From Planctomycetales bacterium (GTDB taxonomy: Bacteria; Planctomycetota; Planctomycetia; Pirellulales; JAEUIK01), in the NCBI GenBank assembly GCA_020426575.1, contig JAGQPT010000004.1, positions 1 through 48,994 of the forward strand: 48,994 nt of DNA, given 5' to 3'. The translations under genes were made by a program, and so were the position numbers. Positions 6,206-48,570 of the stretch are shown here, one piece after another. Position 1 is the first letter of the stretch. Each line of letters starts with the position of its first letter. The notes under the pieces were generated by a model, which made no database searches, had not been told where the DNA came from, and saw only the letters and a list, made by a program, of their open reading frames with translations.

Positions 6206-6212
6206 GGCTCTG

Positions 6213-7181: not shown

Positions 7182-7274
7182 CGTTGTACTCAGCCTGCTT
7201 TAGCGTTGTTGGCGGTGGTGAATTAGTCCGTGCACGGGGAAGAGCCGACGCCGGTCGCGGTAGCACGACGAGGG

Positions 7275-8648: not shown

Positions 8649-9039
8649 CAGCGACTTCTCGCCGCCAGGAAGCTCCGATTGCCCGCTGCACACAGTGGCT
8701 TGCGTGTGTCGATGCGCCAACGGTCAAGAAAACATAGCTCACCTCGTGGCGCCGGGTACAAACAAGTCGAGAAAAGTCCACACGGGTCCACATCGCGCGG
8801 CTTTCAGCGATCGTGTCGATCGTAGGGTGGGGCTGCCGGGCCGGCAGGGCGTTCCGGGGACGATTCACACCCAGTCGCTGAACGGTACGTTCAGTCGCCG
8901 AATGCTTTATCGCTCAAGGCGGAGAACTGGGAGCGGTCCGCGTGCCGGCGAAGAGACTTTCCCCAAATTCGACGCATCACCCGCAGTCGCCGCGCGACGC
9001 TGTCGCGCGGGTTGACGCAAGGTTGTTCGCGAAGACGCG
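8649..9039. other. 391-bp spacer between cpaE and cpaF
   Basis: No supported gene lies here; frames on both strands are arginine-rich shadows. The only structure I see is the GC-rich hairpin at 8990-9010. The spacer could contain a secondary promoter for cpaF-tadB-tadC, but I cannot point to convincing -35/-10 elements. Confidence 0.5.
8990..9010 (-). other. GC-rich perfect hairpin just after cpaE
   Basis: CCGCGCGAC and GTCGCGCGG form a perfect 9-bp stem with a 3-nt loop, centred about 40 bp after the cpaE stop. There is no T-tract, so it is not a standard intrinsic terminator. It could be an mRNA-stabilising 3' hairpin or a Rho-related pause site; by chance a GC-rich genome can also produce such stems. 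Confidence 0.45.
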
Positions 9040-10248: not shown

Positions 10249-10345
10249 CGGCTGAGAATCCTGCTGGTCGTTGTCATCGCCAGTCGAGGGTCCGCCGTGC
10301 AGCTAGCTGACGTCGGCTGATGCGCCCATGGCGATTGCTCAGTAC

Positions 10346-10375
10346 AAAAAGGCGGCCAGGTGGGCCCTGGCCGCC
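10346..10375 (-). terminator. Rho-independent terminator after the secretin gene
   Basis: On the minus strand GGCGGCCAGG and CCTGGCCGCC form a perfect 10-bp stem with a 5-nt loop, followed directly by TTTTTG. It starts about 22 bp after the secretin stop. It should divide the Tad locus into an upstream pilin-to-secretin part and a downstream motor part, unless readthrough is regulated. Confidence 0.85.
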
Positions 10376-10396
10376 ATGGCATTAGGAAACGCTACT

Positions 10397-12241: not shown

Positions 12242-12532
12242 CCTTGACCTTCCTTGCAGCAATCCGTATGTGTTTGTTCGTAACCATGAGGCGTCGACGA
12301 TCTCGGATCGTCAACGATTCTCATGCACCGTTCCGACTCGATCGACGCCGTTCCATCAAATCCGCGTAGCGTCGAGTCGTGTAACGCTGGTCTTGCCTGG
12401 CATCTAAACCGACGTTCCTGCGACCACTGTGTCACAGTCACCTCGGCACCCGTCCACGCCACCCTTTCCCGATGGCGTCACAAGGCCGGACGGTGCGAAC
12501 AATTCCCTTTGTGCGCTCCTGCGTGTCTTGTT

Positions 12533-13774
12533 TCAGCCCCTTTGGTCCCCAGGCCGTCGGCCAAGCGACGGCTCAATCCCCTCGGCATCGATACCTTCGT
12601 TATCGATCCCCTCCGCATCGATACCTTCGTTATCGATATCATCGTCATCAAAATGGAATTCGTCGAAGTCGAAGTCGTCGCCTTCGTCCGAGTTGTTTCC
12701 GGTGCTGGCACCGCCGTAGGGGGTCGTGCTAGCTGCACTCGTGCCAACCTGACTCGTCGAACGCGTGGCCGACGACGCCGGCTGGCTGCCTACTCCTTGT
12801 TCCAGCGGCACGACGTGGACGAACCCGTCGACAAACGTCACCCGGCTGGCAACGCCGTCTTGCAGCAGCGTCATCGTCCAGTCGGGTTCCTTGTCAGCCG
12901 GCGGCTCCACGACGGCGGGGGCCTGGGCAAGCGCTACCGGCTGGGCCTTCGTCTCGGGCTGCTTGTTGATCAGGGAAAGCAGGTCGCCGTCTTCGCCGTC
13001 TCTACTCTCGTCGACCAGCTTCTCGGAGTCCCGGTTGCCCGCGCCCGCCATGTCGAGAATGTCATTGGCGGTGCGGCCCGTGAGGTCCTTGACGATCTTG
13101 TTGTCTTCCGGGCTGCGGAGCACGAGTTGTAGCTCGCCCATATTGGCGGCCAGGGTTACCATCTCAGCCTGGTCAGGCGTCAGCAACAGCGACACGGTCT
13201 TGGCCATGCTCATGCCGTCGTTCTCTTCGTTTTCACGACGGAACTGGGCGTTGACGGCAAAGACGCGAATGTCCTGCAACAACGTCATGGCGCTAGAGAT
13301 CGCAATCCCCTTGGATTCGTTCTTGTCGAGGAACACGAGCACGTCGACGCGGTCGCCGGGCTGCAGGAGGCCTGAGCCACCCGAAACGACGTCGACCTTC
13401 ACCGGCGTGACGCGGTGTCCGTCGGGGATCAGCACCGTCGGGCCAGCCGTGCTGTCACCCTTGCTGAAGAGTTTATTGGCGAGAATAGGTTCGCCGGGAT
13501 AAATTCGCGTCTTGGTCACGCGACCTTCGACATCGCCCAGATTCTTGATCGCACCGGCGGGTACCAGGTCGGTCGGCCAGGGCTCGAGTTTGAGCATTTC
13601 GGCCGTGACCGGTACGCCGAGTTCGACCTGCGTCTGCACGACGTAAATCGGCGTCGTGTCCTGGACGGGTGCCTGCTGAGTGGCGCGATTGGCCAACACC
13701 TGGTTGATGCCGATCGAGGCGATCAGGCCACATCCCAGGGCCAGCATGAGCAGGACAATCGACTTGGGTCGCAT
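12533..13774 (-). CDS. cpaB: Flp pilus assembly protein CpaB/RcpC
   Basis: A 413-aa periplasmic protein, membrane-anchored by MRPKSIVLLMLALGCGLIASIG, with an SAF domain (ELGVPVTAEMLKLEPWP, then RIYPGEPILANKL) and the RcpC/CpaB domain (LLQPGDRVDVLVFLDKN, TLLQDIRVFAVN, SLLLTPDQAEMVTLAANMG). In other Tad systems it contacts the secretin. Start ATG 13774 has an AAGGAGA site 5 nt upstream. The last 60 residues are very acidic (EGDDFDFDEFHFDDDD) and include a tandem duplication in the DNA (12581-12640). The C-terminus is therefore likely disordered, and is longer than in typical family members. Confidence 0.92.
   Translation of the reverse strand: MRPKSIVLLMLALGCGLIASIGINQVLANRATQQAPVQDTTPIYVVQTQVELGVPVTAEMLKLEPWPTDLVPAGAIKNLGDVEGRVTKTRIYPGEPILANKLFSKGDSTAGPTVLIPDGHRVTPVKVDVVSGGSGLLQPGDRVDVLVFLDKNESKGIAISSAMTLLQDIRVFAVNAQFRRENEENDGMSMAKTVSLLLTPDQAEMVTLAANMGELQLVLRSPEDNKIVKDLTGRTANDILDMAGAGNRDSEKLVDESRDGEDGDLLSLINKQPETKAQPVALAQAPAVVEPPADKEPDWTMTLLQDGVASRVTFVDGFVHVVPLEQGVGSQPASSATRSTSQVGTSAASTTPYGGASTGNNSDEGDDFDFDEFHFDDDDIDNEGIDAEGIDNEGIDAEGIEPSLGRRPGDQRG
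12581..12640 (-). repeat. 30-bp tandem duplication within cpaB
   Basis: Two adjacent 30-bp units, 12581-12610 and 12611-12640, share the core GCATCGATACCTTCGTTATC and differ at only about three positions. In the protein they encode an acidic repeat (GIDNEGIDAE twice) near the C-terminus. Units of 30 bp keep the reading frame, so copy number could vary without breaking the gene. Confidence 0.85.
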
Positions 13775-34673: not shown

Positions 34674-36404
34674 TCACTCCCCCAACAACCGCAGTGCCGT
34701 GTCCTTGACCACTGGTGCGGCGGCGGGGCCGACGGACATCGTTTCTTCGTATTCGTCGTCACGGAAGTCGTCCGGCGGGATGATGTAGCCCAACTCGTCG
34801 TTGGCCAGCCCGATCAACATGCGCGGGAAGCCGGTCATCCGCTCCAGAATCTCGAACGAGACTTCCGGCAACAGCTCGCCGGGCAGCGTGAGCATCTGGC
34901 ACTCGCCCAGCGTGATCAGCGACATCTCCGTGACCACGCGGCCGCGGCTGGTCGGACGCCGCGCGTCGGGCCCCATCAGTCCCTTGAAGCGAGGATTCGT
35001 CACCGGTATCTCGATGCGGCGCGTCCGGGCCGAGAATTCGAACGTCGCCGGCGGCTGTGCCGTCTTGGCCAATTCGGCGACGATTTCCGCCAGGCCCAAC
35101 CCAGTGACTTCGGCCTCTTCGTGGTTCCGCTCGCGATTATCGCCGCTGACCATGCCACCGACGGCCCCGTTGAGAAAAACGGCCTGACCGCCGCCGTCGC
35201 GGGCGATCTGGTCGCACATGTAACCGGGGAAGTCGGCCGTCATTTCGCGAACGCCCATCTCGATCCCCTCGACGTGACAGGCGAAGTTGACCAGCGTCGT
35301 GATCACCCGACCGTCTTCGCCCACGGCCTGCAACAACGAGATCGTCGGATCGATCAACCCCGTGTTGCGGGCATTGCGGAAGTAACCGATCACCCGGGCG
35401 CCGTCCATCGGCAACGCGCGCGAGGCGCCGCGCAGCGACGCCACCGGCACCGCCGCTTCGCGGGCGGCCAGCACACTGTCGACCACCTGCTGCTGGATGA
35501 ATTCGATGTGCCGCTCGGGAAAGTAGCCGTACACGCCGATCGTGTCAGGCGCCGCGTGATTGTGCGACATGGCCAGCACGAAGTGTTCGACGCCGGCGTC
35601 GGCAAGTTGCTGCTTGATCGGCAGGACCTCCGAATAGCTCATACCGAACAGGTCAGCCCCCACCAGAGCGATGGTTTCACCGCCATGCTCGAACACCGCG
35701 GTGCGGGCCCAGATGTCGTCGTGCGGGGTGAACCGACCGGCGTAGCGCGGGTCCACCCAATCAGGCTGCGGCGAGAGTTTCCGCTGGTCGGTCCCGCAAC
35801 TCAGGCCGGCGACGCTGGCGGGCCTTTCCGGCGCCGGCTGCGGCCCTTCACGCAGATGCGTGAGATCAACGAGTTGCCGTGCGCCCTCGTGCACCCGGCG
35901 GCGCATGTGCGGAAACAATGCCGTGCCGATCGTGCGGCCATCGCGATCGACAATGAAGCGGGCCCCCTGCTCCGCGTAATCGAGCATCGAAAACGTCGGC
36001 GTCCGCAGGACGAACTCGGGCGGACCGAGACTGTCCACGATCGTGGCTTCGTTGTCGTAGCCGTCGATGACCGTGACGAGTTCGGCCGAGGCGTATTTGC
36101 CGTCGTGGCCGCGCGTGTGAATCGAGTCAAACAATCCGTCGCGCGCCGGGTAAAGCCGCTTGTAGGCGTACCACTTCCCGGCGTGTGCGGGTTCGCCGAG
36201 TTCACGCAGCACGTCGTCAGCCGTTGAAAGGCCGGGAACCAAACCGTGATAGGTGACGGGCGGCGGCGGATCGTCGGGCGAGACGTCGCCGTCGACCGCC
36301 TGAGCCAGCGCGAGTGGCGATCCTGCTACGAACGCCAATGCCACCGCACCCATTAACATCGCCACACGCCGCCAAGGACTGCTTCGTTCAATCACGTCGT
36401 TCAT
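34674..36404 (-). CDS. Exported ceramidase-N-domain-like protein
   Basis: A 576-aa protein with a signal peptide (AMLMGAVALAFVAGSPLALAQ). Residues about 50-180 contain LSTADDVLRELGEPAHAG and DSLGPPEFVL, SmpA/OmlA-like lipoprotein patterns. The larger part resembles the neutral/alkaline ceramidase N-domain: FVLAMSHNHAAPDTIG and LVNFACHVEGI supply His ligands, and FLNGAVGGMVSGDN is also typical. Start ATG 36404, with GAGG 6 nt upstream; an open frame to 36716 is false because it runs through tRNA-Leu antisense. A lipid or amide hydrolase in the periplasm is likely, but the exact substrate is not known. Confidence 0.75.
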   Translation of the reverse strand: MNDVIERSSPWRRVAMLMGAVALAFVAGSPLALAQAVDGDVSPDDPPPPVTYHGLVPGLSTADDVLRELGEPAHAGKWYAYKRLYPARDGLFDSIHTRGHDGKYASAELVTVIDGYDNEATIVDSLGPPEFVLRTPTFSMLDYAEQGARFIVDRDGRTIGTALFPHMRRRVHEGARQLVDLTHLREGPQPAPERPASVAGLSCGTDQRKLSPQPDWVDPRYAGRFTPHDDIWARTAVFEHGGETIALVGADLFGMSYSEVLPIKQQLADAGVEHFVLAMSHNHAAPDTIGVYGYFPERHIEFIQQQVVDSVLAAREAAVPVASLRGASRALPMDGARVIGYFRNARNTGLIDPTISLLQAVGEDGRVITTLVNFACHVEGIEMGVREMTADFPGYMCDQIARDGGGQAVFLNGAVGGMVSGDNRERNHEEAEVTGLGLAEIVAELAKTAQPPATFEFSARTRRIEIPVTNPRFKGLMGPDARRPTSRGRVVTEMSLITLGECQMLTLPGELLPEVSFEILERMTGFPRMLIGLANDELGYIIPPDDFRDDEYEETMSVGPAAAPVVKDTALRLLGE

Positions 36405-36633
36405 ATCAGCCTCGGTCCAGGCAGTTGCGCGGGAAATGGCACCATAATACCCCAGAACGAGGCAAGCGACGATCCAGACGCGGGAAATGGCCGAATCAGA
36501 TGACGGCCGTACAGACAACGCCCGGTCACACCAAGGCTGGGCCGCTCGCTGCTGTGCACTTGACGGCGGGAATGCTAAAATGGTCAAGATGCTGCCGATA
36601 CCCAACCGCACGACATTGAGGCAGCAGGCGGCA

Positions 36634-36715
<82 letters not shown>

Positions 36716-37221
36716 TTCGTCGGTGCAGTCCGATGCAACACCGCGCGACGCAGCGTCAATTGTTGCGTTTTTCTCGACGGTTGTGCCCTAGTCGTCCGTT
36801 TGCTCTGCGCGACCGCCAGGGCCATTGTCCGTGCGATTTGGCGCGATCGGTATCATTGGCGAAGCGTGTTCGACGGCACCGTTTTCGGCACCACGCGGCA
36901 CCATAGTGGGCACCTCGCCGGGCGTCGCTTGGTCGTCGAGTGACGGGGACTTCCGCCCATTTATGTCCGTGGTGGCCAACACCGCCTCCTCGACCACCAG
37001 CCCAGCGTATTTGCGCGTAGGCGCTGGCGCAGCCAGCGGGCCGCCAAATCGGCGCTGGCGGATTTGGTACGACATTCGTATCACTCTGTGATTCGCCGTG
37101 GGTTCGCAAGAACCGTCTTCGGCAACGTTCAACCCTCTCGACCAGTCGACCTATTGCGACGGTTACATTTGCCGAGTCGAACGGCACAGAAATTGCAAGA
37201 AATAGCATGGAGGGTAACGCC
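36716..37221. other. 506-bp region after tRNA-Leu, no supported gene
   Basis: Frames on both strands are Arg-rich and lack recognisable motifs. I found no integrase fragment, no obvious repeat of the tRNA 3' end and no inverted repeats. It contains the upstream region of the PCMT-Ere fusion gene. Confidence 0.45.
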
Positions 37222-39237
37222 ATGCACATTATTCGCTTTGATCGACAACGGGACGAGTTAGTCGAAAACGAGTTGCGAATGCTCGGAATTCGCGATGACG
37301 CCGTGCTCGAGGCGATGCATGCCGTCCATCGCGAGCAGTTCGTCTCCGAATTCCTGCACGAATTCGCCTATCGAAACGCGCCGCTACCGATTGGTTCCGG
37401 GCAAACGATTTCTCAACCGCTGATCGTGGCGCTGATGGCCGAAGCCCTCGAGTTAGGGCCGGAGGACCGTGTGCTCGAGATCGGCACGGGATCGGGCTAT
37501 GCGGCTGCGGTGTTGTCACGCATCGTCAAGGAAGTGTTCTCCGTCGAAAGGCTTCCGGCGCTAGCGAACGAAGCGCGAAATCGACTCGATCGACTTGGCT
37601 ATCACAACGTCCACGTGTTGGAGGGGGACGGCACGCGTGGCTGGCCGGAGCACGCCCCATACGACGCCATCACCGTGGCCGCCGGCGGTCCTGGTATTCC
37701 CCCGGCACTGCTCGAGCAGCTTCGGATTGGCGGGCGACTGGTAATGCCGGTCGGCGAAGAGCGCGACACACAGACACTGATTCGTGCGGTGCGTCGAGGC
37801 AACGACCATTTTGACTACGAAGAACTCGGCGCCGTCCGCTTCGTTCCGCTGGTAGGTGAGGCTGGCTGGCAGGAAGAGGACGCACTTCGACAACCCACGC
37901 CTTCGAGGAGTGACGTGCGGCGACGCACCGGACTGCCTGACCTGATTCGCCAGGCGGCCGAACCAATCATTTCAGTCGACCAACCCAACCTCGTTGGACT
38001 ACTCGAACGGATTGGGGATGCGCGACTCGTACTTATCGGTGAGGCAACTCATGGGACGTCAGAGTTCTATCGACTCCGCGCCGCGATCACGAAGGCGCTG
38101 ATCACGCGCAAGGATTTCGATTTCGTGGCGGTAGAAGCTGATTGGCCCGATGCCTACCGCATTCATGACTTCGTCACGCATCGCCAGCGCCGAGAGCCTC
38201 ACGAATGGGAGTCGTTTGCTCGGTTCCCCACCTGGATGTGGCGCAACCACGAAGTCCTCGACTTCATCCATTGGCTGCGCGATTACAATATGCATTACCG
38301 GGCAAGCGACCGACGCGCCGGCTTCTACGGCTTGGACCTTTACAGCATGTTCACGTCGATCCACTGTGTACTGGAGTACCTCGATCGCGTCGATCCTGAC
38401 GCGGCGGCAGTGGCACGAGTACGATACGGTTGCTTGTCGCCGTGGGAGGCGGATCCGGCGAGCTATGGCCGCGCTGTGCTCACCGATCGCTATCGCAGTT
38501 GCGAGACCGAGATCGTCGAAATGCTTGAGAAACTCACGCAGCAGAGAATCGAGGCCGCCGTGCGCAATGGAGAAGACCTGTTCGACGCACAATTAAACGC
38601 GCGTCTCATCACCGACGCGGAACAATACTACCGCATCATGTACTACGGTTCCGACGAGTCATGGAATCACCGCGACACCCACATGTTCGAGACGTTAAGG
38701 CTACTTCTTGAACGACACGGCCCCGGTGCGAAAGCCGTGGTCTGGGAACACAACTCGCATTTGGGGAACGCCGCAGCGACGGAATTCGGCAAACGAGGTC
38801 AAATCAATGTCGGGCAACTGTGCCGCGAGACGTACGGAAGTCAGGTGTATGCGATCGGACAAGGGACGGATCATGGCACGGTCGCGGCGGCGTCGCAGTG
38901 GGAAGGCCCCATGGAGATCAAACAAGTCCGGCCGGCGCTTCCCGACAGTTATGAGCGGCTGATGCATCTGGCGGAAATGGAACGTTTCTTCTTGCCGCTG
39001 ACAAAGTCGACCAATCAGCAACTTACTTCGGCGCTGGCACTAAGGCGATTGGAGCGGGCGATTGGCGTGATCTATCGCCCCGAAACGGAACGTTTGAGCC
39101 ACTACTTCGACGCTTCACTCGCGCGTCAGTTCGACGAGTGGATTTGGCTGGACGAAACATCAGCACTACGGCCGCTGACGACAAAACAGGCTGCCGAGCA
39201 TGAGCCGCCGCATCCATTTGCTGTTATCGACGAGTGA
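37222..39237 (+). CDS. Protein-L-isoaspartate methyltransferase fused to erythromycin-esterase-like domain
   Basis: A 671-aa two-domain protein. Residues 1-215 are a PCMT repair methyltransferase: IGSGQTISQPLIVALMAE, then the SAM motif LEIGTGSGYAAAVLSRI near 84-100 and VAAGGPGIPPALLEQLR. A linker leads to an EreA/erythromycin-esterase-like domain from about residue 250: LIGEATHGTSEFYRLRA, VEADWPDAYRIHDF, FPTWMWRNHEVLDFI, FYGLDLYSM and VWEHNSHLGNAAA near 508. Start ATG 37222 is chosen because GGAGG stands 8 nt before it; ATG 37207 is upstream of that site. The esterase part may use a different natural substrate, as many family members do not confer macrolide resistance. The next gene follows after 24 bp. 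Confidence 0.9.
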   Translation: MHIIRFDRQRDELVENELRMLGIRDDAVLEAMHAVHREQFVSEFLHEFAYRNAPLPIGSGQTISQPLIVALMAEALELGPEDRVLEIGTGSGYAAAVLSRIVKEVFSVERLPALANEARNRLDRLGYHNVHVLEGDGTRGWPEHAPYDAITVAAGGPGIPPALLEQLRIGGRLVMPVGEERDTQTLIRAVRRGNDHFDYEELGAVRFVPLVGEAGWQEEDALRQPTPSRSDVRRRTGLPDLIRQAAEPIISVDQPNLVGLLERIGDARLVLIGEATHGTSEFYRLRAAITKALITRKDFDFVAVEADWPDAYRIHDFVTHRQRREPHEWESFARFPTWMWRNHEVLDFIHWLRDYNMHYRASDRRAGFYGLDLYSMFTSIHCVLEYLDRVDPDAAAVARVRYGCLSPWEADPASYGRAVLTDRYRSCETEIVEMLEKLTQQRIEAAVRNGEDLFDAQLNARLITDAEQYYRIMYYGSDESWNHRDTHMFETLRLLLERHGPGAKAVVWEHNSHLGNAAATEFGKRGQINVGQLCRETYGSQVYAIGQGTDHGTVAAASQWEGPMEIKQVRPALPDSYERLMHLAEMERFFLPLTKSTNQQLTSALALRRLERAIGVIYRPETERLSHYFDASLARQFDEWIWLDETSALRPLTTKQAAEHEPPHPFAVIDE

Positions 39238-39261: not shown

Positions 39262-40395
39262 ATGAGACACGAGCTTGTCCAGCGATTGATGGACGAATTC
39301 GCCGAGTCGACCGGATTGACATGTCGGTCGGAACCCCGCCGTTATCTCTGGACCGATGCCTTTGCTGTTTGCAACTTTCTCGGCCTTCGTCATGAATCGG
39401 GCCGAGAGCGCTACTTGCAACTGGCACGTGACTTGGTCGATCAGGTGCACCACATTTTGGGACGGCATCGACAGGATGATCCCCGCAGCGGCTGGATTAG
39501 CGGCCTTTCGGAAGCAGATGGAGCACGTCACCCCACGTACGGCGGTCTGAGAATCGGTAAGAGACTGAACGAACGCGAGGCAGGCAAGCCAGCAAATCCT
39601 CGCCTGGAGTGGGACCAGGATGGTCAGTATTTTCATTACCTGACGAAATGGATGCACGCGCTCACGCGAATGAGTCAGGACACAGGCGACACCTCGTACT
39701 TGCGCTGGGCTGCCGAACTTGCAGTCGCAGCTCACCGATCATTCGTATATCCAGTTCGTCCTCACGGTCCCAAACGGATGTTCTGGAAGATGAGCATCGA
39801 CTTGCGCCGACCGCTCGTCGACTCGATGGGCCACCATGATCCTCTGGACGGCATGGTCGGCTTTTTCGAGCTGCGAATCAGTGATGGCATTCCGGCAGAC
39901 GTCGCCGCCAATCTGGATGCCGCAATCGACGACTTTTCGCAAATGTGTGACCGCGCACATTGGGTGACCGACGATCCACTGGGGATCGGTGGACTTTTGG
40001 ACGATGCGTTGCGGCTGGCAGAGTTGGCCGCTCACCGCGGAATCGATCGTCGCGAACTGCTCTTGCAGTTGCTTGGCGACGCGAGAGCTTCTCTTCAGGG
40101 ACTTTGCCAGTCATCGATGCTCGACCAGGCGGTCTCGCAACGCCTAGCGTTTCGCGAGTTGGGTCTGTCGATCGGACTCCGCGCAGTGCCTTTGATCGTC
40201 GAACTCGTTTCGCCGGACGCGGAGCTGGCGCGACTTGCACAATGCCTGACCAAGTATGAACCACTCCGTGGGCGAATTGAAACGCTGTGGACTCAGCCCG
40301 TCCACAGGGAGAGCCGCACGTGGCAAGAGCACCATGACATCAACACCGTCATGCTTGCCACGAGTCTGGCGCCTGATTCGTACCTGGCGGCTTAA
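39262..40395 (+). CDS. Alpha-helical protein of unknown function, partner of the PCMT-Ere gene
   Basis: A 377-aa soluble protein beginning at ATG 39262, with AGGGG about 9 nt upstream, 24 bp after the PCMT-Ere stop. The sequence is alpha-helical and Trp/His-rich, for example DQDGQYFHYLTKWMHALTRM, LRWAAELAVAAHRSF, RMFWKMSIDLRRPLV and HHDINTVMLATSLAPD. This resembles (alpha/alpha)6-barrel, glycosidase-like proteins with repeated helical pairs, but no catalytic motif is clear. Co-transcription with the fusion suggests a shared process. Codon use is like the neighbouring lower-GC genes. Confidence 0.7.
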   Translation: MRHELVQRLMDEFAESTGLTCRSEPRRYLWTDAFAVCNFLGLRHESGRERYLQLARDLVDQVHHILGRHRQDDPRSGWISGLSEADGARHPTYGGLRIGKRLNEREAGKPANPRLEWDQDGQYFHYLTKWMHALTRMSQDTGDTSYLRWAAELAVAAHRSFVYPVRPHGPKRMFWKMSIDLRRPLVDSMGHHDPLDGMVGFFELRISDGIPADVAANLDAAIDDFSQMCDRAHWVTDDPLGIGGLLDDALRLAELAAHRGIDRRELLLQLLGDARASLQGLCQSSMLDQAVSQRLAFRELGLSIGLRAVPLIVELVSPDAELARLAQCLTKYEPLRGRIETLWTQPVHRESRTWQEHHDINTVMLATSLAPDSYLAA

Positions 40396-40642: not shown

Positions 40643-41563
40643 TTAGCAATTCTCCAGTTGGTTCTTCAGCAAAAGCACAGCGCGCTCTTTTGCTTTCGCT
40701 TCGACTTCAACAGTCAATCGGCGGTTGCGCCAACAGCCAGGGAAGTCGGAAACCTCGACGAAAGCGTCGTGCCGCTTTGGGTTCGTGCCGTCCCAGCCGT
40801 CGAGCGGACTTGACACGTGAAACAACGGCTCACGATTCCACGTCGCGGCGGCCTGCTCTGAGGCCTCTTCGACTGACATCGCGTCCGGATTACATCGATG
40901 ATGATGCACATCGTAGACGAGCGGGATACCCTCGGCCGCGCACAAGGGCAAGAGGTCGGCGGGAGTGTAGGTGGTATCATCGTTTTCGATCGTCAAACGA
41001 AGTCGAACCCGGTCGGACAGCCGTGGCAGACACGTGGCGAAGCGAGACAATGCCACTGTCTTGTCGCCATACGCTCCTCCACCGTGGATGTTGATGACGT
41101 CGGCTCCCACCCACTCAGCAATCTCGGCTTGATACTCGAGTTCTGCGACGGACCGGTCGACAACCTCAGGGCGCGGTGAATTGAGGACTACAAACTGGTC
41201 GGGATGGAAAGACATTCGAATGCCGCGCGTCTTGGCGAAATCGCCGCACGATATGAAACGCTGAACGATCTCGTCACCTTTCGGCAAATCCCCCATGCCA
41301 TAGCCACATTCTTGGTGGGTCTTTAGAGGAAGAACCTGGCTGTTAATGCGAAAGCAACCAATTTGATTCGTGGCACAAAAAGCAAGCGATTTGCCCAAGG
41401 CATCGGCGTTGTGGGTGCACAACTCCGCAAGTTTCGCCAACGCCGGGCGACGCTTCATGCTGCTGACAGCTTTGACCGTGGTATTGCGGAACTTGATCGG
41501 CTGATCCAAAAAAGAACAACAGAGACCGAGACGAAGCTTGCCGGCAACTGGGAGTTGCGCCAT
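40643..41563 (-). CDS. uvsE: UV DNA damage endonuclease UvsE
   Basis: A 306-aa TIM-barrel endonuclease of the Endo IV superfamily, which nicks DNA 5' to UV photoproducts such as cyclobutane dimers. Motifs: LRLGLCCSFLDQPIKFR, FRINSQVLPL, MSFHPDQFVVLNSP (metal His near residue 116), INIHGGGAYGDKTV, LTIENDDTTYTPADLL and VYDVHHHRCNPDA, which supply the metal-binding residues. Start ATG 41563, 2 bp after the tspO stop; the open frame upstream to 41956 is false because it overlaps tspO. With tspO it forms a two-gene operon. Confidence 0.93.
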   Translation of the reverse strand: MAQLPVAGKLRLGLCCSFLDQPIKFRNTTVKAVSSMKRRPALAKLAELCTHNADALGKSLAFCATNQIGCFRINSQVLPLKTHQECGYGMGDLPKGDEIVQRFISCGDFAKTRGIRMSFHPDQFVVLNSPRPEVVDRSVAELEYQAEIAEWVGADVINIHGGGAYGDKTVALSRFATCLPRLSDRVRLRLTIENDDTTYTPADLLPLCAAEGIPLVYDVHHHRCNPDAMSVEEASEQAAATWNREPLFHVSSPLDGWDGTNPKRHDAFVEVSDFPGCWRNRRLTVEVEAKAKERAVLLLKNQLENC

Positions 41564-41565
41564 TG

Positions 41566-41961
41566 TCAATGGTTCCAGAAGGTAATTGATAACTGGAGAA
41601 CAGTTGCAATGGACACCCAGACAAAATAGGGCAGCTGTGCCAACGCGATCCAGCGATAATGCCTCCAAACAGCGATGACGATCCAAATAATGGACGCCCA
41701 GACGACGAGTATGTCCACCGCTGCCAACGCCAGGTTGCGCAGGCCGAATTGAATGGGAGTGAAGGCAACATTGGCCACCAGATTGACAACGAACGGCACC
41801 GTAATCTTCCACGGCACCTTGCCCCGAAACGCCTGCACGAATGTGAATCCGAAAGTGACCACAATTATTGGATAGAGGACTTGCCAGATCAGTCCAATCG
41901 TGGCCGGCGCGGGCGTCCACGACGGTTTCGCAAGGCTGTTGTACCAATCCATCCACGTCAT
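41566..41961 (-). CDS. tspO: TspO/MBR family membrane protein
   Basis: A 131-aa protein with five hydrophobic segments. Family signatures: WYNSLAKPSWTPAPATIG at the N-terminus, then LIWQVLYPIIVVTFGFTF, PFVVNLVANVAFTPIQFGL and DILVVWASIIWIVIAVW. TspO proteins bind porphyrins and take part in light and oxidative stress responses. The protein is slightly short for the family (about 150-160 aa). Start ATG 41961, with GGAG about 9 nt upstream. It is coupled to uvsE with a 2-bp gap. Confidence 0.9.
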   Translation of the reverse strand: MTWMDWYNSLAKPSWTPAPATIGLIWQVLYPIIVVTFGFTFVQAFRGKVPWKITVPFVVNLVANVAFTPIQFGLRNLALAAVDILVVWASIIWIVIAVWRHYRWIALAQLPYFVWVSIATVLQLSITFWNH

Positions 41962-42216
41962 GCTTGGTACTCCATCTCTATTGCGCGTTGTCGCTCACAA
42001 TGTTCACGCATGTTGGCGATGGCCCTGGCTGATGTCGTCCGTCGGCTGGGAATCCGCCCCGAGTTCTCTCGGCCCGCCCTGGTAGTCAACATCGTCGCGT
42101 AGTAGTGGCACTTCTTTCCCGAAGCGGCAATTAATAGGACCCGGACTCCACTCAATGGCGCGTACGCTGGGGAATCGACGATGGGTTGCGACACTCAGGG
42201 GATATTTTGCATTCCG

Positions 42217-42993
42217 TTAGGACAGCCTGCGCGGGCGGCGAGGGAAGAAGGCACTAGTCCGGGCGATGTATTCTTGGTACCCGGGACGGTGCCGCATCGT
42301 CTGTTCCAACAGGGATACTCCGGAGACGCGGATCAACAACACAGACATGAGCGCCGGACTAAAAACGGTCCACCAGGCGCCCCCGGCCGCAGCCACGAGA
42401 TAGAGCCCCCACCAAATCAAAGAATCGCCAAAATAATTGGGATGACGCGTGTACCGCCACAATCCCCGGTCGCACACTCGTCCGATGCTCTCGGGACGAC
42501 TTTTGAACGACGCCAACTGCCAATCGCCAACGGCTTCAAAAAACAGTCCGGCCGACCAGCAGGCGATCCCCAAAACGTCCACGATTCCCAACTCCGAAGA
42601 GCTGTATCGCCCCGCCACCACCGGCACGGCAACAAGCCACATCACAACTCCCTGCAGTAGAAAGACGCGGTACAAACTCGTGACCGCAAACCGTGGGCCA
42701 TGCCGATTGCGCATCGCGCGATACCTGGAATCCTCGCCACGGCCTAGGTTGCGGTGGGCAAGATGTCCTGCCAGTCGCAGCCCCCAGACGGTCGTGAGCA
42801 GCGTGAGCAGCCAACCCCGGGGATAATTGACCTGGGTGCACAGTTGCGCACACCAGGCGATAGCCACGAAGCCCAGACCCCAGGCGATATCAACAATGCT
42901 GACATCACCCATCAGGATGCTCAACAGCCAGAGCAAGATCATCGCTAAGGCGACGAGGGCGAGCGTGACACCGAGCAGTGGCACAACGTCCAT
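42217..42993 (-). CDS. DUF1295 (steroid 5-alpha-reductase-like) membrane protein
   Basis: A 258-aa polytopic protein with the DUF1295 pattern: SIVDIAWGLGFVAIAW, GWLLTLLTTVWGLRLAGHL, then GLWRYTRHPNYFGDSLIWWG near the end, and YQEYIARTSAFFPRRPRR. It belongs with steroid reductase/ICMT-like enzymes; the substrate is probably a lipid. I start at ATG 42993, with AGGAG 9 nt upstream; GTG 42999 is too near the ribosome binding site. It diverges from the Cfa-like gene at 43199, so the 205 bp between them can hold shared control. Confidence 0.9.
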   Translation of the reverse strand: MDVVPLLGVTLALVALAMILLWLLSILMGDVSIVDIAWGLGFVAIAWCAQLCTQVNYPRGWLLTLLTTVWGLRLAGHLAHRNLGRGEDSRYRAMRNRHGPRFAVTSLYRVFLLQGVVMWLVAVPVVAGRYSSSELGIVDVLGIACWSAGLFFEAVGDWQLASFKSRPESIGRVCDRGLWRYTRHPNYFGDSLIWWGLYLVAAAGGAWWTVFSPALMSVLLIRVSGVSLLEQTMRHRPGYQEYIARTSAFFPRRPRRLS

Positions 42994-43198
42994 ACCCACG
43001 GGCTCCTAATTACGAATGGCGTCAGCAACGTCCAAAACAGCGAGGATCGCGCATGACACTCTACCGCAGCGGCCAGTCCCACTTACAGATTTTGCCAGTC
43101 TAACACACTGCCCATTCTTGCCGGTGAGTCTAAAGTGCCACGGGCGCGTATCGCCTGTGCAAGCTCCGCCCGCTCATGTTTCCCGAGGGTTTCAAATC

Positions 43199-44353
43199 AT
43201 GAATGTGATCAGACTTGCCGAACAGCAGTTGCTGCCGGACTGGTTGATCCGTTGGGGGATCCGACGGCTGCTTGCGCAACGGATACGACAAATCACGCAC
43301 GAGACACCGGAAGCGCGATCCAAGGATGCCGCCGACATGCAGAAGGCGCTTTCGGTGAGCCCGATCACCATCGACGTCACCACGGCGAATGACCAGCACT
43401 ACGAGGTCCCGCCAGAGTTTTTTCGCAGCGTATTGGGAACGCGGCTCAAATACAGTTGTTGTCTCTTTCCCCGCGGTAGTGAGAGCCTCGACGAGGCCGA
43501 AGAACAAATGCTGGAGTTGGTCTGTCGACGCGCCCAGCTGTTCGACGGCATGCACATCCTCGATCTCGGGTGCGGCTGGGGGTCACTGACACTTTGGCTG
43601 GCAAGTCACTATCCGCGGGCGGTCGTTACGGCACTTTCGAATTCCAGTAGCCAGCGGCAATACATTGAGAAACAGTGCCGCGAAGCGGGGCTTAACAACG
43701 TTCGTGTCTTCACTGGCGATATCGGCACGACCGAATATCTATCAAGCACAGCAGGTCGACGTTTCGACCGAATTGTTTCGGTGGAGATGTTCGAACACGT
43801 CCGCAACCACGGCACGCTGTTGCAGCGCTTGTCGAATTGGCTCACCCCGGATGGCAAACTGTTTGTGCACATCTTTTGTCACCGCGATACGACGTACCTG
43901 TTCGAGAACGACGGCCCCACGAGTTGGATAACGCGACAATTCTTCGCCGGAGGAATGATGCCCGCCGACGATCTGTTGCTACGCTATCCAGACAACGTGT
44001 TCCTTGAGCGGCAATGGCGTGTCAGCGGTCTGCAATACGCGCGCACTTGCGAACATTGGCTGCATCGCCTTGACACAAACAGGCCGCAAGTGGAACTATT
44101 GTTCGACCATCTCAGCGGCAATGGACGCGGCGACGCCGGTGGCAAGGTACTCGTGCAGCGCTGGAGGATGTTTTTCATGGCTTGTGCGGAGCTCTTTCGC
44201 TACCAGGGGGGCAATGAATGGTACGTTTCGCATTACCTCTTCAAGAATCGCCAGTCAGCAACGCCCCAGTCGCATCCGTCATCCGTCACGGCACACGGAC
44301 GGCCGCTCACACTGCCGACCTCGCCGGATAGGTCTGCAACGGCGATTGAATAA
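43199..44353 (+). CDS. Short Cfa-type SAM-dependent fatty acid methyltransferase
   Basis: A 384-aa enzyme of the cyclopropane-fatty-acid-synthase family without the usual N-terminal domain. SAM motif ILDLGCGWGSLTLWLASHYP near residues 120-140, then SVEMFEHVRNHGTLLQRL and LFVHIFCHRDTTYLFEN. Methyl or methylene groups are added to unsaturated acyl chains of membrane lipids. Start ATG 43199, with GAGGG about 10 nt upstream; the frame is open to 43016 but that part is not family-like. Its 3' end overlaps the convergent Cfa gene by 47 bp. Confidence 0.9.
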   Translation: MNVIRLAEQQLLPDWLIRWGIRRLLAQRIRQITHETPEARSKDAADMQKALSVSPITIDVTTANDQHYEVPPEFFRSVLGTRLKYSCCLFPRGSESLDEAEEQMLELVCRRAQLFDGMHILDLGCGWGSLTLWLASHYPRAVVTALSNSSSQRQYIEKQCREAGLNNVRVFTGDIGTTEYLSSTAGRRFDRIVSVEMFEHVRNHGTLLQRLSNWLTPDGKLFVHIFCHRDTTYLFENDGPTSWITRQFFAGGMMPADDLLLRYPDNVFLERQWRVSGLQYARTCEHWLHRLDTNRPQVELLFDHLSGNGRGDAGGKVLVQRWRMFFMACAELFRYQGGNEWYVSHYLFKNRQSATPQSHPSSVTAHGRPLTLPTSPDRSATAIE

Positions 44354-45704
44354 AGTCTGGCAGGCGAGATGCTGGTTTAGTCAGCACGAGTTGCGCGGCG
44401 CCAATCTGACGCTCTGCAAATCCTGCCTCACAATAGCGCAGATAATACTCCCATAATCGGACGAACCGATCGTCAAATCCTAGTGCCCGTACGTCACTCA
44501 CATTTTGGCGAAATGCCTGGCGCCAACGCCGTAACGTTTTCGCATAGTGCGGTCCAATTTCTTCCCAGCTGAACATGCGAAAGTCAGTCTGCCGCCGCAG
44601 GCAATCACCGATGGCTGCCGAACATGGCAGAAACCCGCCGGGAAACACGTGTTTCTGGATAAAATCGACTGACCGCCGGTAGTGGTCGTATCGGTGATCG
44701 GGAATCGTGATCGCCTGCAACAACATTGCCCCGTCGGGACGCAGCAACTCACAACACTTGTTGAAAAAGATGGGGAGATAGCGTTCGCCGACAGCTTCGA
44801 TCATCTCAATCGAAACGAGTTTATCGAATCGTCCTTCGAGTTGCCGATAGTCACGCTGCAACAGTGTCACACGATCGCCGACACCGGCGTCTTCGAGCGA
44901 TCTTCTCGAGTATTCAAACTGATTCTGTGAGATGGTCGTTGACGTGACGTGACAGCCAACATTGAGCGCTGCATAGCGCGCAAAGCCTCCCCAGCCCGAA
45001 CCGATTTCCAAAACTCGATCCGACGGGTGCAAGCGGAGCTTTTGGCAAATGCGTGCGTACTTACTGAGTGATGCTTGCTGCATCGTCGCATCAGGCTGTT
45101 CGAAAACGCCACATGAGTAGGTCATCGTGGGATCGAGAAACGTCGCGAAGAACTCGTTGCTGAGGTCGTAGTGGGCAGCGATGTTGCGCCGACTGCCAAT
45201 GATCGTGTTGGACCTCAAACAGTGCCAAAGGATGTCCCGCCAGCGAGCGATGCTCGACACACCGCCGTCCACAGCCGTCGAAACGCCGAGGTTACGTGCC
45301 AACACCCGCAGCACGGCAGTGAGGTCGTCCGACTCGATATCGCCGTCGACATAAGTCTCTCCCATCGCCAAGCTCCCTCCCAGCGCCAAGCGACGCCAGA
45401 AACGTCCGCGAAGCACGCGCAACGTCGCTGACATCCCGTCGGATCCTTTGCTGCCGTAAACACGGTGCCGACCGTTCTCCACAACCTGCAGTTCCCCATT
45501 GCGGATGGACTCAAGTTGCCGCTCGACTAGCGATCGCAGCAGCCGCTCGACCGCCGTCGGCGCCGTTGATGCGGCTTTGCAACAGGCGTCTGACGAGACA
45601 ACCTCCGGGCAGGTGTCGACTAGTGCAGGGCCGTTTCGGTAGGACGTGTGTTCTGTGTGCGCGCGTTGCGCGGGTGTGGATAGAATGGACATCGCCTTAA
45701 CCAT
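44307..45704 (-). CDS. cfa: Cyclopropane-fatty-acyl-phospholipid synthase
   Basis: A 465-aa full-length Cfa enzyme. The N-terminal domain includes LGGSLAMGETYVDGDIESDD. The C-terminal domain includes AHYDLSNEFFATFLDPTMTY, the SAM motif VLEIGSGWGGFARYAAL near residue 230, LVSIEMIEAVGERYLPIFF and DFIQKHVFPGG. It turns cis double bonds into cyclopropane rings or adds a methyl group, using SAM. I start at ATG 45704; ATG 45692 is also possible. The frame is open to 45854, but that part overlaps the DUF1365 gene. Even at 45704 the gene overlaps the end of that gene by 85 bp, suggesting translational coupling. Confidence 0.92.
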   Translation of the reverse strand: MVKAMSILSTPAQRAHTEHTSYRNGPALVDTCPEVVSSDACCKAASTAPTAVERLLRSLVERQLESIRNGELQVVENGRHRVYGSKGSDGMSATLRVLRGRFWRRLALGGSLAMGETYVDGDIESDDLTAVLRVLARNLGVSTAVDGGVSSIARWRDILWHCLRSNTIIGSRRNIAAHYDLSNEFFATFLDPTMTYSCGVFEQPDATMQQASLSKYARICQKLRLHPSDRVLEIGSGWGGFARYAALNVGCHVTSTTISQNQFEYSRRSLEDAGVGDRVTLLQRDYRQLEGRFDKLVSIEMIEAVGERYLPIFFNKCCELLRPDGAMLLQAITIPDHRYDHYRRSVDFIQKHVFPGGFLPCSAAIGDCLRRQTDFRMFSWEEIGPHYAKTLRRWRQAFRQNVSDVRALGFDDRFVRLWEYYLRYCEAGFAERQIGAAQLVLTKPASRLPDFIQSPLQTYPARSAV

Positions 45705-46411
45705 AATTGAAGTGCCTGAAAATAGATCGCGGCTGTCGTGCGACCCGACGCTAGCGGATACCTCCAACTCAGACGCCTGAGACAGGGGCGATCGAGTGGC
45801 CTTCGCCGGAGCGACATTCGCGCCGAGAAGAGTCGTTTCGCACCGTCTAGACAATCGATACCGACACTGAGGGACTCATTCGGAGCGCTCACACGCCAAC
45901 GATACTGCAGCCCCATGGGCATGAATGGCGAAACGTGAAACTGTTTGGCGTGCTCGCTTTGCATGATCGTTTGAGCCGTGGCGAACTCAACGTCGTCGAG
46001 CACGTACCAGTGGCGTTCACCCCACGGCGTGTTGTTCACCTCCACCACAATCGTTTGCAATGTGCGACCGTCGACTTGGTAGCAGAAGTAGAGATTGAGC
46101 GGACTAAAGTAGTAGCCAAAATGCCTAAAGGGCGAGAGCAAACGCACGGGTCCGTCGAATTCGATGTGGGCACTGTTGGAAAGAAAACGTCGCACTTGGC
46201 CAAGCAGGTCGTCACCTTGGCCCCAGCCCATGTCAGTAGCATCGAACGACGTAGCGGCAAAACGCCGGTCGGAAATGAGGCGGTCGCTGCCCACGATTTG
46301 TGGAAGCTCCGCGAGATCCAGGTATCCCAAATAGATCCGGTACGCAAACCGATGCTTTATGGGGCCATAGCGCTGATGCGTGATGTAGCCTTCGTAGATA
46401 CAACTCTGCAT
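45620..46411 (-). CDS. DUF1365 family protein
   Basis: A 263-aa protein of the DUF1365 family: SCIYEGYITHQRYGPIKHRF at the start, FGYYFSPLNLYFCYQVDG, VVEVNNTPWGERHWYVL, KQFHVSPFMPMGLQYRWRV and YFQALQLWLRRCPFYPHP at the end. Function is unknown, but it is almost always found between an FAD oxidoreductase and a Cfa enzyme. Start ATG 46411; it overlaps the FAD gene by 55 bp and the cfa gene by 85 bp, so the set is tightly coupled. Confidence 0.93.
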   Translation of the reverse strand: MQSCIYEGYITHQRYGPIKHRFAYRIYLGYLDLAELPQIVGSDRLISDRRFAATSFDATDMGWGQGDDLLGQVRRFLSNSAHIEFDGPVRLLSPFRHFGYYFSPLNLYFCYQVDGRTLQTIVVEVNNTPWGERHWYVLDDVEFATAQTIMQSEHAKQFHVSPFMPMGLQYRWRVSAPNESLSVGIDCLDGAKRLFSARMSLRRRPLDRPCLRRLSWRYPLASGRTTAAIYFQALQLWLRRCPFYPHPRNARTQNTRPTETALH

Positions 46412-47679
46412 GGGCGGAGGTCGCGTAGTTCGTCCAGATTTCGGCCGAAATAGTTTGCCACGTTTAAGGCACTGCGTACCCCATCCTCGTGAAATCCATA
46501 ACCCCAGTAGGCACCACAAAAGTGCACGCGATGCCGGCCGCTGATCGCAACATGTTGCCGTTGCGCTGCAAGCGATTCAGCTCGGAAGCTGGGGTGAGAG
46601 TATTGGAATGTACGCAAGACCTTGCTTTGATCTATCCTTCCGTCGTCGTTCAGCGAGAGAAGGACCGGCACTGGTGTGCTGAGGCGTTGAAGACGCCGCA
46701 GGTCATAGGTCACGCAAGCAACGGAGTCAGCGCAGACACGATAATTCCAGCTTGCCCAAGCACGACGCCGCCTCGGCAGCACCGACGAATCAGTGTGCAA
46801 GACTGCGTGATTTTGTTGATAGTCGAAGGCCCCCAAAATGCGCCGTTCCCGCGCGTCGGCGTCACCCAACAGACGAAGCGTTTGATCTGCGTGTGTGGCA
46901 AACACAACGTGTTCGAAGGACTCGACCGTACCGTCTTGTGTCTGCACGTGCACGCTACCGCTAGTGCGGGTAACTCGCGCCACAGTCGTACTGAGTCGAA
47001 GGCGATGTGATATCGGCTGCAGAAGTGCGTCCACGTACCGCCGCGCACCTCCTGGAATTGTGAGCCACCGCGGACGATCACGCAGTTGCAGCAGCCCGTG
47101 GTTGTGAAAAAACCCCAGCAAAAAAACCAATGGAAACTCAAGGACACGATCAGGCCGCGTCGACCAGATCGCCGCAACCATCGGCAGCAAATAGCGCTCA
47201 ACAAATGGCTGGCCAAATCGGTTTTGATTGAGAAAGTCACCGACACTCGTTGCGTCGTCGACGCTCCGCCCGCCTCTGACGATGCAGGTAGCTTCGCGGT
47301 TGAAGCGGGCGATGTCGCACAGCATAGCCCAGAAGCGGAAGCGCGCAAGGTTATGCCGTTGCGCGAAAAGACCGTTGATTGAGCTCCCTTGGTATTCCCA
47401 GCCGCTACGATCGCAACGAACGCTAAAGCTCATGTCGCTGGGTTGCACGCCTATGCCCAACAGCTCCAACATTCGGCAGAAACGTGGATAGGTACGACGA
47501 TTGAAAACCATGAACCCGGTGTCCGCCGCATAAGTCTGGCCATCCAGTTCAAATTCGACGGTATTCGTGTGCCCTCCCGCGTAGGAGGCGGCTTCGTACA
47601 AGTGCAGGTCGTTTCCACGGGCGAGCAACCGTGCCACAAGATTCCCGCTAATGCCGGCCCCGATCACAGCGATTCGCAT
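46357..47679 (-). CDS. FAD-dependent amine-oxidase-like oxidoreductase
   Basis: A 440-aa flavoprotein with the N-terminal dinucleotide fold RIAVIGAGISGNLVARLLA, then YEAASYAGGHTNTVEFELDG and DTGFMVFNRRTYPRF. The amine-oxidase/phytoene-desaturase type body contains LLPMVAAIWSTRPDRVLEFP and IPGGARRYVDAL; near the end VHFCGAYWGYGFHEDGVRSA is the FAD-binding C-terminal motif. A role in oxidation of fatty acyl chains is inferred from the DUF1365-Cfa context. Start ATG 47679 is 12 bp after the desaturase stop. Confidence 0.93.
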   Translation of the reverse strand: MRIAVIGAGISGNLVARLLARGNDLHLYEAASYAGGHTNTVEFELDGQTYAADTGFMVFNRRTYPRFCRMLELLGIGVQPSDMSFSVRCDRSGWEYQGSSINGLFAQRHNLARFRFWAMLCDIARFNREATCIVRGGRSVDDATSVGDFLNQNRFGQPFVERYLLPMVAAIWSTRPDRVLEFPLVFLLGFFHNHGLLQLRDRPRWLTIPGGARRYVDALLQPISHRLRLSTTVARVTRTSGSVHVQTQDGTVESFEHVVFATHADQTLRLLGDADARERRILGAFDYQQNHAVLHTDSSVLPRRRRAWASWNYRVCADSVACVTYDLRRLQRLSTPVPVLLSLNDDGRIDQSKVLRTFQYSHPSFRAESLAAQRQHVAISGRHRVHFCGAYWGYGFHEDGVRSALNVANYFGRNLDELRDLRPCRVVSTKATSRISAMAP

Positions 47680-47691
47680 CGTTGGCTCCTT

Positions 47692-48570
47692 TCAGAATCG
47701 CTGCCGATCCGTCGTCGGACGGCTTTCGACGACGAGCACATGATTAGGCACGACGTTCAAGTCCCAAATGATCCCGCACCATGCCATCGCGCGAAGCAGG
47801 TAATACGTCAGATCGACTTCCCACCAGTAAAAACCTTGCCGCACGGAGTTGGGATAGTAGTGGTGGTTGTTGTGCCACCCTTCGCCCATCGTGACCATCG
47901 CAAGCAGAAAGTTGTTCCGACTGTCGTCGTTCGTGGGGAATCTCCGTTGCCCAAACCTGTGTGCGAGGGAATTGATGCAAAATGTGACGTGGTAAAGTGC
48001 AACGGTCGAAAGCACAAAGCCCCAGACGAACATCTGTGGACCATTGACGTTCAATTCGGGTGCGTAGCGTTGGAGGACCGAGCCGAATAAGAAAACGGAG
48101 GTCGCCAGAAGCATCGGGGCCACGAAATCAAACCGATCGATCAGTCGAAGCTCGGGGTATCTCAGCCAGTCTTTCACGTACTTGCGAGGCGTGAAGTAGT
48201 GTTCGTGGGTCATGAACCACAACATGTGACTGTAGCAAAAGCCCTGTTGGTTCGGAGAATGCACGTCATTCGCGGTGTCCGAATGCTGGTGATGAAGTCG
48301 ATGATGCGCCGACCACCAGATGGGGCCTCGCTGGCCCGCGGAATTGCCGAGCAATGCCCCGAGAAACTGCACCGTTCTCGACGTCTTGAAGGTGCGGTGC
48401 GAAAAATAGCGGTGATAGAACGCAGTAAGTCCAAACACCCGTGCAAAGTAGATTGCCACAGCGGTTGCAACGGACATCCAACACCAGCCCACCCAAATCG
48501 CGGCGAAGCAAGCTAGATGCAGAGCAAAAAAAGGCGTCACACGCAACCAGTTTACTTTTGACCGGGCCAT
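47692..48570 (-). CDS. Delta-9-type fatty acid (acyl-CoA) desaturase
   Basis: A 292-aa membrane di-iron desaturase. Histidine boxes: HRYFSH (about residue 53-58), HHRLHH (about 89-94) and HNNHHYYPNSVRQGF (about 225-240). Several membrane segments, such as FFALHLACFAAIWVGW. It introduces a cis double bond into an acyl chain, giving the substrate that Cfa-type enzymes need. I start at ATG 48570; a TTG at 48579 lies upstream. It is the first gene of the desaturase-FAD-DUF1365-cfa operon. Confidence 0.93.
   Translation of the reverse strand: MARSKVNWLRVTPFFALHLACFAAIWVGWCWMSVATAVAIYFARVFGLTAFYHRYFSHRTFKTSRTVQFLGALLGNSAGQRGPIWWSAHHRLHHQHSDTANDVHSPNQQGFCYSHMLWFMTHEHYFTPRKYVKDWLRYPELRLIDRFDFVAPMLLATSVFLFGSVLQRYAPELNVNGPQMFVWGFVLSTVALYHVTFCINSLAHRFGQRRFPTNDDSRNNFLLAMVTMGEGWHNNHHYYPNSVRQGFYWWEVDLTYYLLRAMAWCGIIWDLNVVPNHVLVVESRPTTDRQRF

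Follow-up and report, generated by a model that had tools for sequence, protein, structure and literature searches.

Closest described systems

Furan fatty acids (FuFA) are known from bacteria, plants and fish, and the characterised biosynthesis genes found in our literature search came from alphaproteobacteria only. Vaccenoyl chains are converted there to a methyl-furan fatty acid, with the oxygen coming from O2, by UfaM (an S-adenosylmethionine (SAM) methylase), UfaD (a flavin adenine dinucleotide (FAD) enzyme) and UfaO (of the DUF1365 family), acting in this sequence, and FufM then puts a second methyl on the product (Lemke et al., 2020; PMC7380195). The ufaD-ufaO-ufaM genes of Rhodopseudomonas palustris (RPA2571-2570-2569) are together enough for 9M5-FuFA, and RPA0924 (FufM) gives 9D5-FuFA; the four proteins suffice for synthesis in Rhodobacter sphaeroides, with an endogenous DUF1295 not excluded there (PMC7380195). 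FufM is 38% identical to Arabidopsis AT4G33110/LIME1 (PMC10940516). R. sphaeroides cells unable to make FuFA are killed by singlet oxygen, and in proteobacterial relatives the ufa genes are associated with rpoE-chrR, with LitR and with photolyase. Here we describe a probable FuFA cluster at positions 40643-48570 of a 48,994-nucleotide stretch of contig JAGQPT010000004.1 (assembly GCA_020426575.1, Planctomycetales bacterium), the whole of which is referred to below as the window.

Gene content of the cluster and its predicted product

Gene identities in the window were obtained from Pfam and NCBIfam profile searches and from reading of the translations. The profile searches recovered every gene that the first-pass annotation, a reading of this DNA from its letters, had placed in the block (profile, E-value and score in brackets):

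47692-48570, minus strand: des, membrane fatty-acid desaturase (PF00487, 2.2e-16)
46357-47679, minus strand: ufaD homologue, FAD/amine-oxidase fold, putative FAD-dependent methyl-acyl desaturase (PF01593/NAD_binding_8)
45620-46411, minus strand: ufaO homologue, DUF1365, proposed O2-dependent furan-forming enzyme (PF07103, 6e-71, 239 bits)
44307-45704, minus strand: ufaM homologue, full-length Cfa/CMAS, Cfa-family SAM methyltransferase (PF02353, 2e-85, 287 bits)
43199-44353, plus strand: fufM homologue (proposed), short CNMT-type CMAS, proposed second furan methylation (PF02353, 3e-41, 142 bits)
42217-42999, minus strand: DUF1295 membrane protein, steroid 5-alpha-reductase fold (PF06966, 2e-72, 244 bits)
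41566-41961, minus strand: tspO, TspO/MBR tryptophan-rich sensory protein (PF03073, 5e-24)
40643-41563, minus strand: uvsE, UV damage endonuclease (PF03851, 1.4e-57, 195 bits; TIGR00629 above cut-off)

We consider this block, with a probability of about 0.8, to be a planctomycete FuFA cluster of the dimethyl type. The triad of FAD enzyme, DUF1365 protein and long Cfa has the domains and the order of ufaD-ufaO-ufaM, and the short Cfa is of the coclaurine N-methyltransferase (CNMT) type, so that the block holds a candidate for each enzyme of dimethyl-furan synthesis, and also a desaturase as the likely source of the alkene. The genes from the desaturase through the FAD enzyme and DUF1365 to the long Cfa form a tight operon with operon-like junctions (a gap of 12 bp between des and ufaD, overlaps of 55 bp between ufaD and DUF1365 and of about 85 bp between DUF1365 and Cfa). 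The short Cfa gene lies on the strand opposite to the long one and the 3' ends of both overlap, while tspO and uvsE are separated by 2 bp. The view of the locus stops at the contig end (48994), 424 bp upstream of the desaturase gene.

The desaturase translation contains three histidine boxes (HRYFSH, HRLHH and HNNHH), as read directly. The short Cfa has no Cfa N-terminal domain, a FufM-type feature, and its best PDB match was the coclaurine N-methyltransferase 6gkv (6e-74, residues 5-349) versus 1e-26 for the Cfa 6bqc; it is therefore proposed as a FufM homologue and not as a Cfa proper. AT4G33110/LIME1 is likewise coclaurine-N-methyltransferase-like. Residues H12, R14, N127 and K156 of DUF1365 are invariant; a sequence search of this protein against the PDB gave no match, and a fold search gave just a nitrobindin/fatty-acid-binding-like barrel at Z 7.3, too weak to interpret. 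The triad proteins are 37-43% identical to those of Mesorhizobium (locus L145), the nearest alphaproteobacterial cluster compared.

In the proposed pathway, the desaturase would make a monounsaturated acyl chain, UfaM would methylate it on the phospholipid, UfaD would bring in a second, conjugated double bond, UfaO would close the furan ring using O2-derived oxygen and FufM would attach the second ring methyl. The resulting furan acyl chain would be sacrificed in quenching singlet oxygen and radicals. The lipid-remodelling reading of the first-pass annotation is supported. It had left the modified acyl chain as cyclopropane, methyl-branched or furan, and the last of these is favoured, the likely product being a dimethyl-furan chain rather than a cyclopropane one; its use of the gene order as the reaction order did not hold, the known sequence being UfaM, UfaD, UfaO and FufM.

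Conservation of the cluster

Genes in the loci of relatives were called with trimmed starts, supplemented by tblastn. DUF1365 was present in 40 of the 98 genomes of the same order searched, the window's own included, and ufaD, DUF1365 and Cfa were contiguous in all 40 (one locus being cut by a contig end), a grouping far above chance. The window thus shares with the other loci of the order a contiguous operon for the UfaM-type CMAS, the UfaD-type FAD enzyme and DUF1365. In the 39 other loci UfaD was 47-58% identical to that of the window, DUF1365 always came after it, and most had DUF1295 and a FufM-type gene in the neighbourhood of the triad. In five of these genomes the gene immediately upstream of ufaD was a desaturase homologue (62-66% identical).

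Scanning species genomes with a short-Cfa profile turned up 80 loci, which belong to Proteobacteria, Verrucomicrobia, Bacteroidota, Planctomycetota and other groups. The FufM gene has DUF1295 nearby in 68 of them, ufaM in 53, ufaD in 50, ufaO in 49 and a desaturase in 40, with contig ends truncating several of the loci; having been picked by FufM, these loci show the arrangement and not its prevalence. The cluster also occurred in Lysobacterales, Burkholderiales and on Acinetobacter plasmids. Among the plasmid records, loci L146 and L147 carry a photolyase gene nearby, the ufa set standing beside it in Acinetobacter and being found with one in Cupriavidus; the ufa triad of Mesorhizobium adjoined a sigma factor and ChrR. 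This agrees with the literature and with the first-pass annotation, which places such a triad near rpoE/chrR and photolyase genes in proteobacteria; the co-conservation of the genes in other genomes, on which it had made its reading depend, was also found. The FuFA cluster is real and widely conserved, and the literature search found no report of such a cluster in planctomycetes. From its presence, dimethyl-furan lipids can be predicted for particular members of the planctomycetes, Verrucomicrobia, Bacteroidota and Lysobacterales.

Regulatory genes

In three loci (L024, L028, L030) a gene for a 287-amino-acid sigma-70-like protein (regions 2 and 4; one member scanned) is located directly upstream of ufaD in divergent orientation. 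A LitR/CarH-like regulator was more frequent in cluster-positive than in cluster-negative genomes of the order (28/40 versus 14/58, p 9e-6), its gene lying no more than about 10 kb from the cluster in 11 loci and neighbouring uvsE in G004. The relatives from L044 and L046 contain HTH_17 (a MerR-type HTH) and B12-binding_2 domains and the one from L062 has a B12-binding_2 match; the latter protein shares 43-56% identity with eight LitR-like relatives. All nine sequences compared (L042 and L029 were left out) have D-x-Y and E-R-R in place of the cobalamin lower-ligand D-x-H and of W-x9-E-H. Lacking the cobalamin-ligand histidine, these proteins are probably not B12 photoreceptors, and a B12-dependent light sensor was rejected for the planctomycete LitR-like proteins on account of this missing motif. 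At another locus (L143, G000:C37, 3335-5030) a LitR-like gene adjoins a gene reading as a fasciclin-domain protein; fasciclin genes are found as well near the ufa cluster of Mesorhizobium and among the Chlamydomonas singlet-oxygen genes described below.

A genome-wide ChrR search of the window's genome, a metagenome-assembled genome (MAG), yielded a single Cupin_7 protein of 179 amino acids with no anti-sigma domain seen by eye, and this small, secreted-looking cupin was rejected as ChrR. The photolyase search of the genome with PF03441 found none. In a search for a promoter motif common to the 40 loci, dyad counts upstream of the cluster yielded compositional hits such as GATCGA and nothing else, and scans for sigma-70 promoters and terminators remained at chance level.

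UvsE, TspO and the weighing of the light link

UvsE repairs UV-damaged DNA and TspO may handle photosensitising porphyrins, so that together with the lipid genes the block would serve as a kit against sunlight and photo-oxidation. This light reading is plausible by association. The UvdE domain was found in 12 of the 40 cluster-positive versus 4 of the 58 cluster-negative same-order genomes (Fisher p 0.004, not corrected for phylogeny), and in three other families uvsE lies next to the cluster (in L036, in L034 and, where the contig ends, in L026); the order fufM-tspO-uvsE in L026 resembles that of the window. The UV link drawn in the first-pass annotation is thus favoured by comparison only, and its further suggestion that UvsE and TspO replace the sigma factor and ChrR was not upheld: neither is a known regulator of such genes, and in the relatives it is the LitR/CarH-like protein that is the regulatory stand-in.

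Several points weigh against the interpretation of the block as a light-related FuFA cluster. Orthology to the characterised UfaM, UfaD, UfaO and FufM would follow from domain, order and subfamily, and the product varies among CMAS-family proteins. None of the 23 sigma-70 region 2 matches in the MAG (about 90% complete) falls on the window's contig, which stops 424 bp before the desaturase gene; together with the negative ChrR search this agrees with the earlier statement that neither regulator is visible at the locus, and the single LitR-like gene of this genome is on another contig, unlinked to the cluster. No uvsE was present in 28 of the 40 cluster-positive genomes. Finally, activation of the Stenotrophomonas cluster conferred tolerance to menadione and none to singlet oxygen, this homologue of the window's cluster protecting from superoxide and not from singlet oxygen (PMC11832516).

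The frequent lack of uvsE also speaks for the best-surviving alternative, in which the lipid genes are a FuFA cluster and tspO-uvsE are adjacent to it by chance with no shared function. A tspO copy directly after fufM in L025 and L026 is 74-75% identical to that of the window, while the neighbouring genes are just 37-51% identical, which suggests either a separate transfer of tspO or a strong constraint on it. On the other side stand the three further families in which uvsE or tspO borders the cluster (L025/L026, L034 and L036), the UvdE co-occurrence given above and the photolyase genes adjoining proteobacterial clusters, and we lean, without great assurance, away from a chance neighbourhood.

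DUF1295 as a companion of the pathway

The most useful new lead is suggested by DUF1295, a near-constant companion of the DUF1365 set. A cluster-type DUF1295 profile matched 39 of the 40 DUF1365-positive and 2 of the 58 DUF1365-negative genomes of the order; across the Planctomycetota it matched 66/69 positive versus 7/177 negative genomes, with 59 of the 66 within 8 kb. Because the profile was built from cluster members and the counts are not corrected for phylogeny, what is informative is that negative genomes so rarely match. Five genomes (G017, G036, G065, G072 and G088) keep DUF1295 with the triad although no FufM-type gene was found in them, which ties DUF1295 to the triad rather than to FufM. 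One genome from the family of the window (L148, G004:C32), without DUF1365 or FufM, retains a cluster-type DUF1295.

The structural model of DUF1295 (pLDDT 94.9) matched the delta-14 sterol reductase and steroid 5-alpha-reductases 4quv, 7c83 and 7bw1 at Z 15.2, 15.1 and 13.8, respectively, and more weakly (Z 11-12) the ICMT methyltransferases, which share the fold. The NADPH-site residues of SRD5A2 are D164, R171, N193 and E197 (PMC7815742), and these positions are occupied in the window protein by D159, K166, N188 and D192. Within the DUF1295 alignment D159 and N188 are invariant, position 166 is K or R, and position 192 is E or D in nearly all sequences, E in most. The enone-activating Q-E-Y motif (Q56, E57, Y91) was not identifiable in the DUF1295 sequence, the conserved D37, with which the second helix begins, and Y93 being candidates by position only. 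By its modelled fold DUF1295 would be an NADPH-type membrane reductase, and we infer a role for it in FuFA metabolism.

Since synthesis needs no more than UfaM, UfaD, UfaO and FufM, DUF1295 most likely comes into play after them, on the oxidised furan (ene-dione) or on some other late product. Steroid 5-alpha-reductases reduce the C=C bond of enones (PMC7815742). If DUF1295 acts in a comparable way, it might reduce the ene-dione to a 1,4-dione, which can re-close to the furan. A furan that traps singlet oxygen opens to an ene-dione, and the boldest version of this idea is that DUF1295 is a general, so far unrecognised part of FuFA metabolism in bacteria and perhaps green algae, an NADPH-dependent ene-dione reductase making the lipid a regenerable quencher; we regard this as speculative and rather unlikely. 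The R. sphaeroides RpoE regulon, as tabulated, has no DUF1295, which speaks against recycling and means that the step is not universal. If recycling did occur, the lipid would be a renewable membrane antioxidant; DUF1295 can in any case be named as a companion enzyme with directly assayable chemistry that points to a missing step in the use or repair of furan lipids.

The same fold is common to enone reductases and alkene (delta-14 sterol) reductases, and DUF1295 is linked to the triad even without fufM. Both would suit a cluster for methyl-branched saturated chains, in which UfaM methylates, DUF1295 saturates the methyl-alkene and the furan is a side branch. We find this improbable, as DUF1365 and the FAD enzyme always accompany the triad yet have no role in such a route, and the studied homologues make furans (PMC7380195).

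Expression of homologous genes

A nine-gene cluster of matching make-up in Stenotrophomonas maltophilia was upregulated 165-697-fold on deletion of chrR; the paper describing it is without mention of furans and names both Cfa copies CfaS (PMC11832516). A plain cyclopropane fatty acid pathway with additional genes in the window, the reading given to the Stenotrophomonas cluster, agrees with this naming and with cyclopropane fatty acid synthases being the nearest solved structures to the long Cfa, but is the least probable explanation of all, as Cfa of the Escherichia coli type requires neither the FAD enzyme nor DUF1365, the short copy is CNMT-type and not Cfa-type, and the conserved context is ufaD-ufaO. 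With the FuFA assignment preferred, the Stenotrophomonas stress operon, earlier read as cyclopropane-type lipid modification, would be reinterpreted as a probable furan cluster.

The SAK1-dependent singlet-oxygen genes of Chlamydomonas include CFA1, CFA2, DUF1365, DUF1295, DUF2177 and a fasciclin protein (PMC4067076); DUF2177 and fasciclin genes were also present in the Mesorhizobium ufa neighbourhood (L145). For the cyclopropane-synthase genes this parallel had been pointed out in a 2021 review, furan modification in Chlamydomonas being said to be under investigation (PMC8491031). DUF1295 homologues are induced with the pathway in Chlamydomonas and probably in Stenotrophomonas.

Other features of the window

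The host of the window is a planctomycete, with 27 copies of the PSD1 family (PF07587) in its genome versus 0 in 14 control genomes. Outside the cluster the following features were recorded:

5219-13774, minus strand: Tad/Flp pilus operon (RcpC/CpaB, secretin, TadZ/CpaE-like ATPase, T2SSE ATPase, T2SSF protein), with a further gene at 5219-6205
34674-36716: listed open reading frame of 680 amino acids beginning within an opposite-strand tRNA-Leu gene (36634-36715), so that its true start lies further in
37207-39237, plus strand: single open reading frame, protein-L-isoaspartate methyltransferase fused to an erythromycin esterase domain
39262-40395, plus strand: protein of 377 amino acids directly 3' of this fusion, with no match in Pfam, NCBIfam or PDB

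Comparison with known systems

Among its parts, DUF1295 shares the fold and the aligned NADPH-site residues with the steroid 5-alpha-reductase/sterol C14-reductase superfamily (7bw1, 7c83, 4quv), but is only 13-15% identical to these structures in the structural alignments. In Pseudomonas, the light-regulated pmlR1/pplR1 (class II LitR) region, which contains phrB, an FAD oxidoreductase and ufaM, resembles the window in having light/UV repair and ufa genes in one neighbourhood, there with a LitR-type regulator; it has a photolyase where the window has uvsE, and the LitR-like gene of the MAG does not adjoin the cluster.

The S. maltophilia genes smlt2375-smlt2367, a sigma-Ec/ChrR target, have in common with the window a desaturase, an FAD oxidoreductase, a hypothetical protein, a Cfa, two membrane proteins and a second Cfa, in an order matching the des-ufaD-ufaO-ufaM-X-DUF1295-fufM of the Stenotrophomonas loci L080 and L081. 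In contrast to the window, they are under the control of a neighbouring sigma/ChrR pair and have a lipocalin gene after them, and were interpreted by their authors as membrane lipid modification and not as furan synthesis.

In comparison with the characterised genes of R. palustris (RPA2571-2569) and R. sphaeroides (RSP_1091, RSP_1090, RSP_2144), the window belongs to a planctomycete, has no linked rpoE-chrR, and adds a desaturase, DUF1295, fufM and tspO-uvsE to the block. The ufaD-ufaO-ufaM products belong to the same protein families in all three, and the window has both the ufaD-ufaO-ufaM order of R. palustris and a FufM-type methylase, represented in R. palustris by RPA0924.

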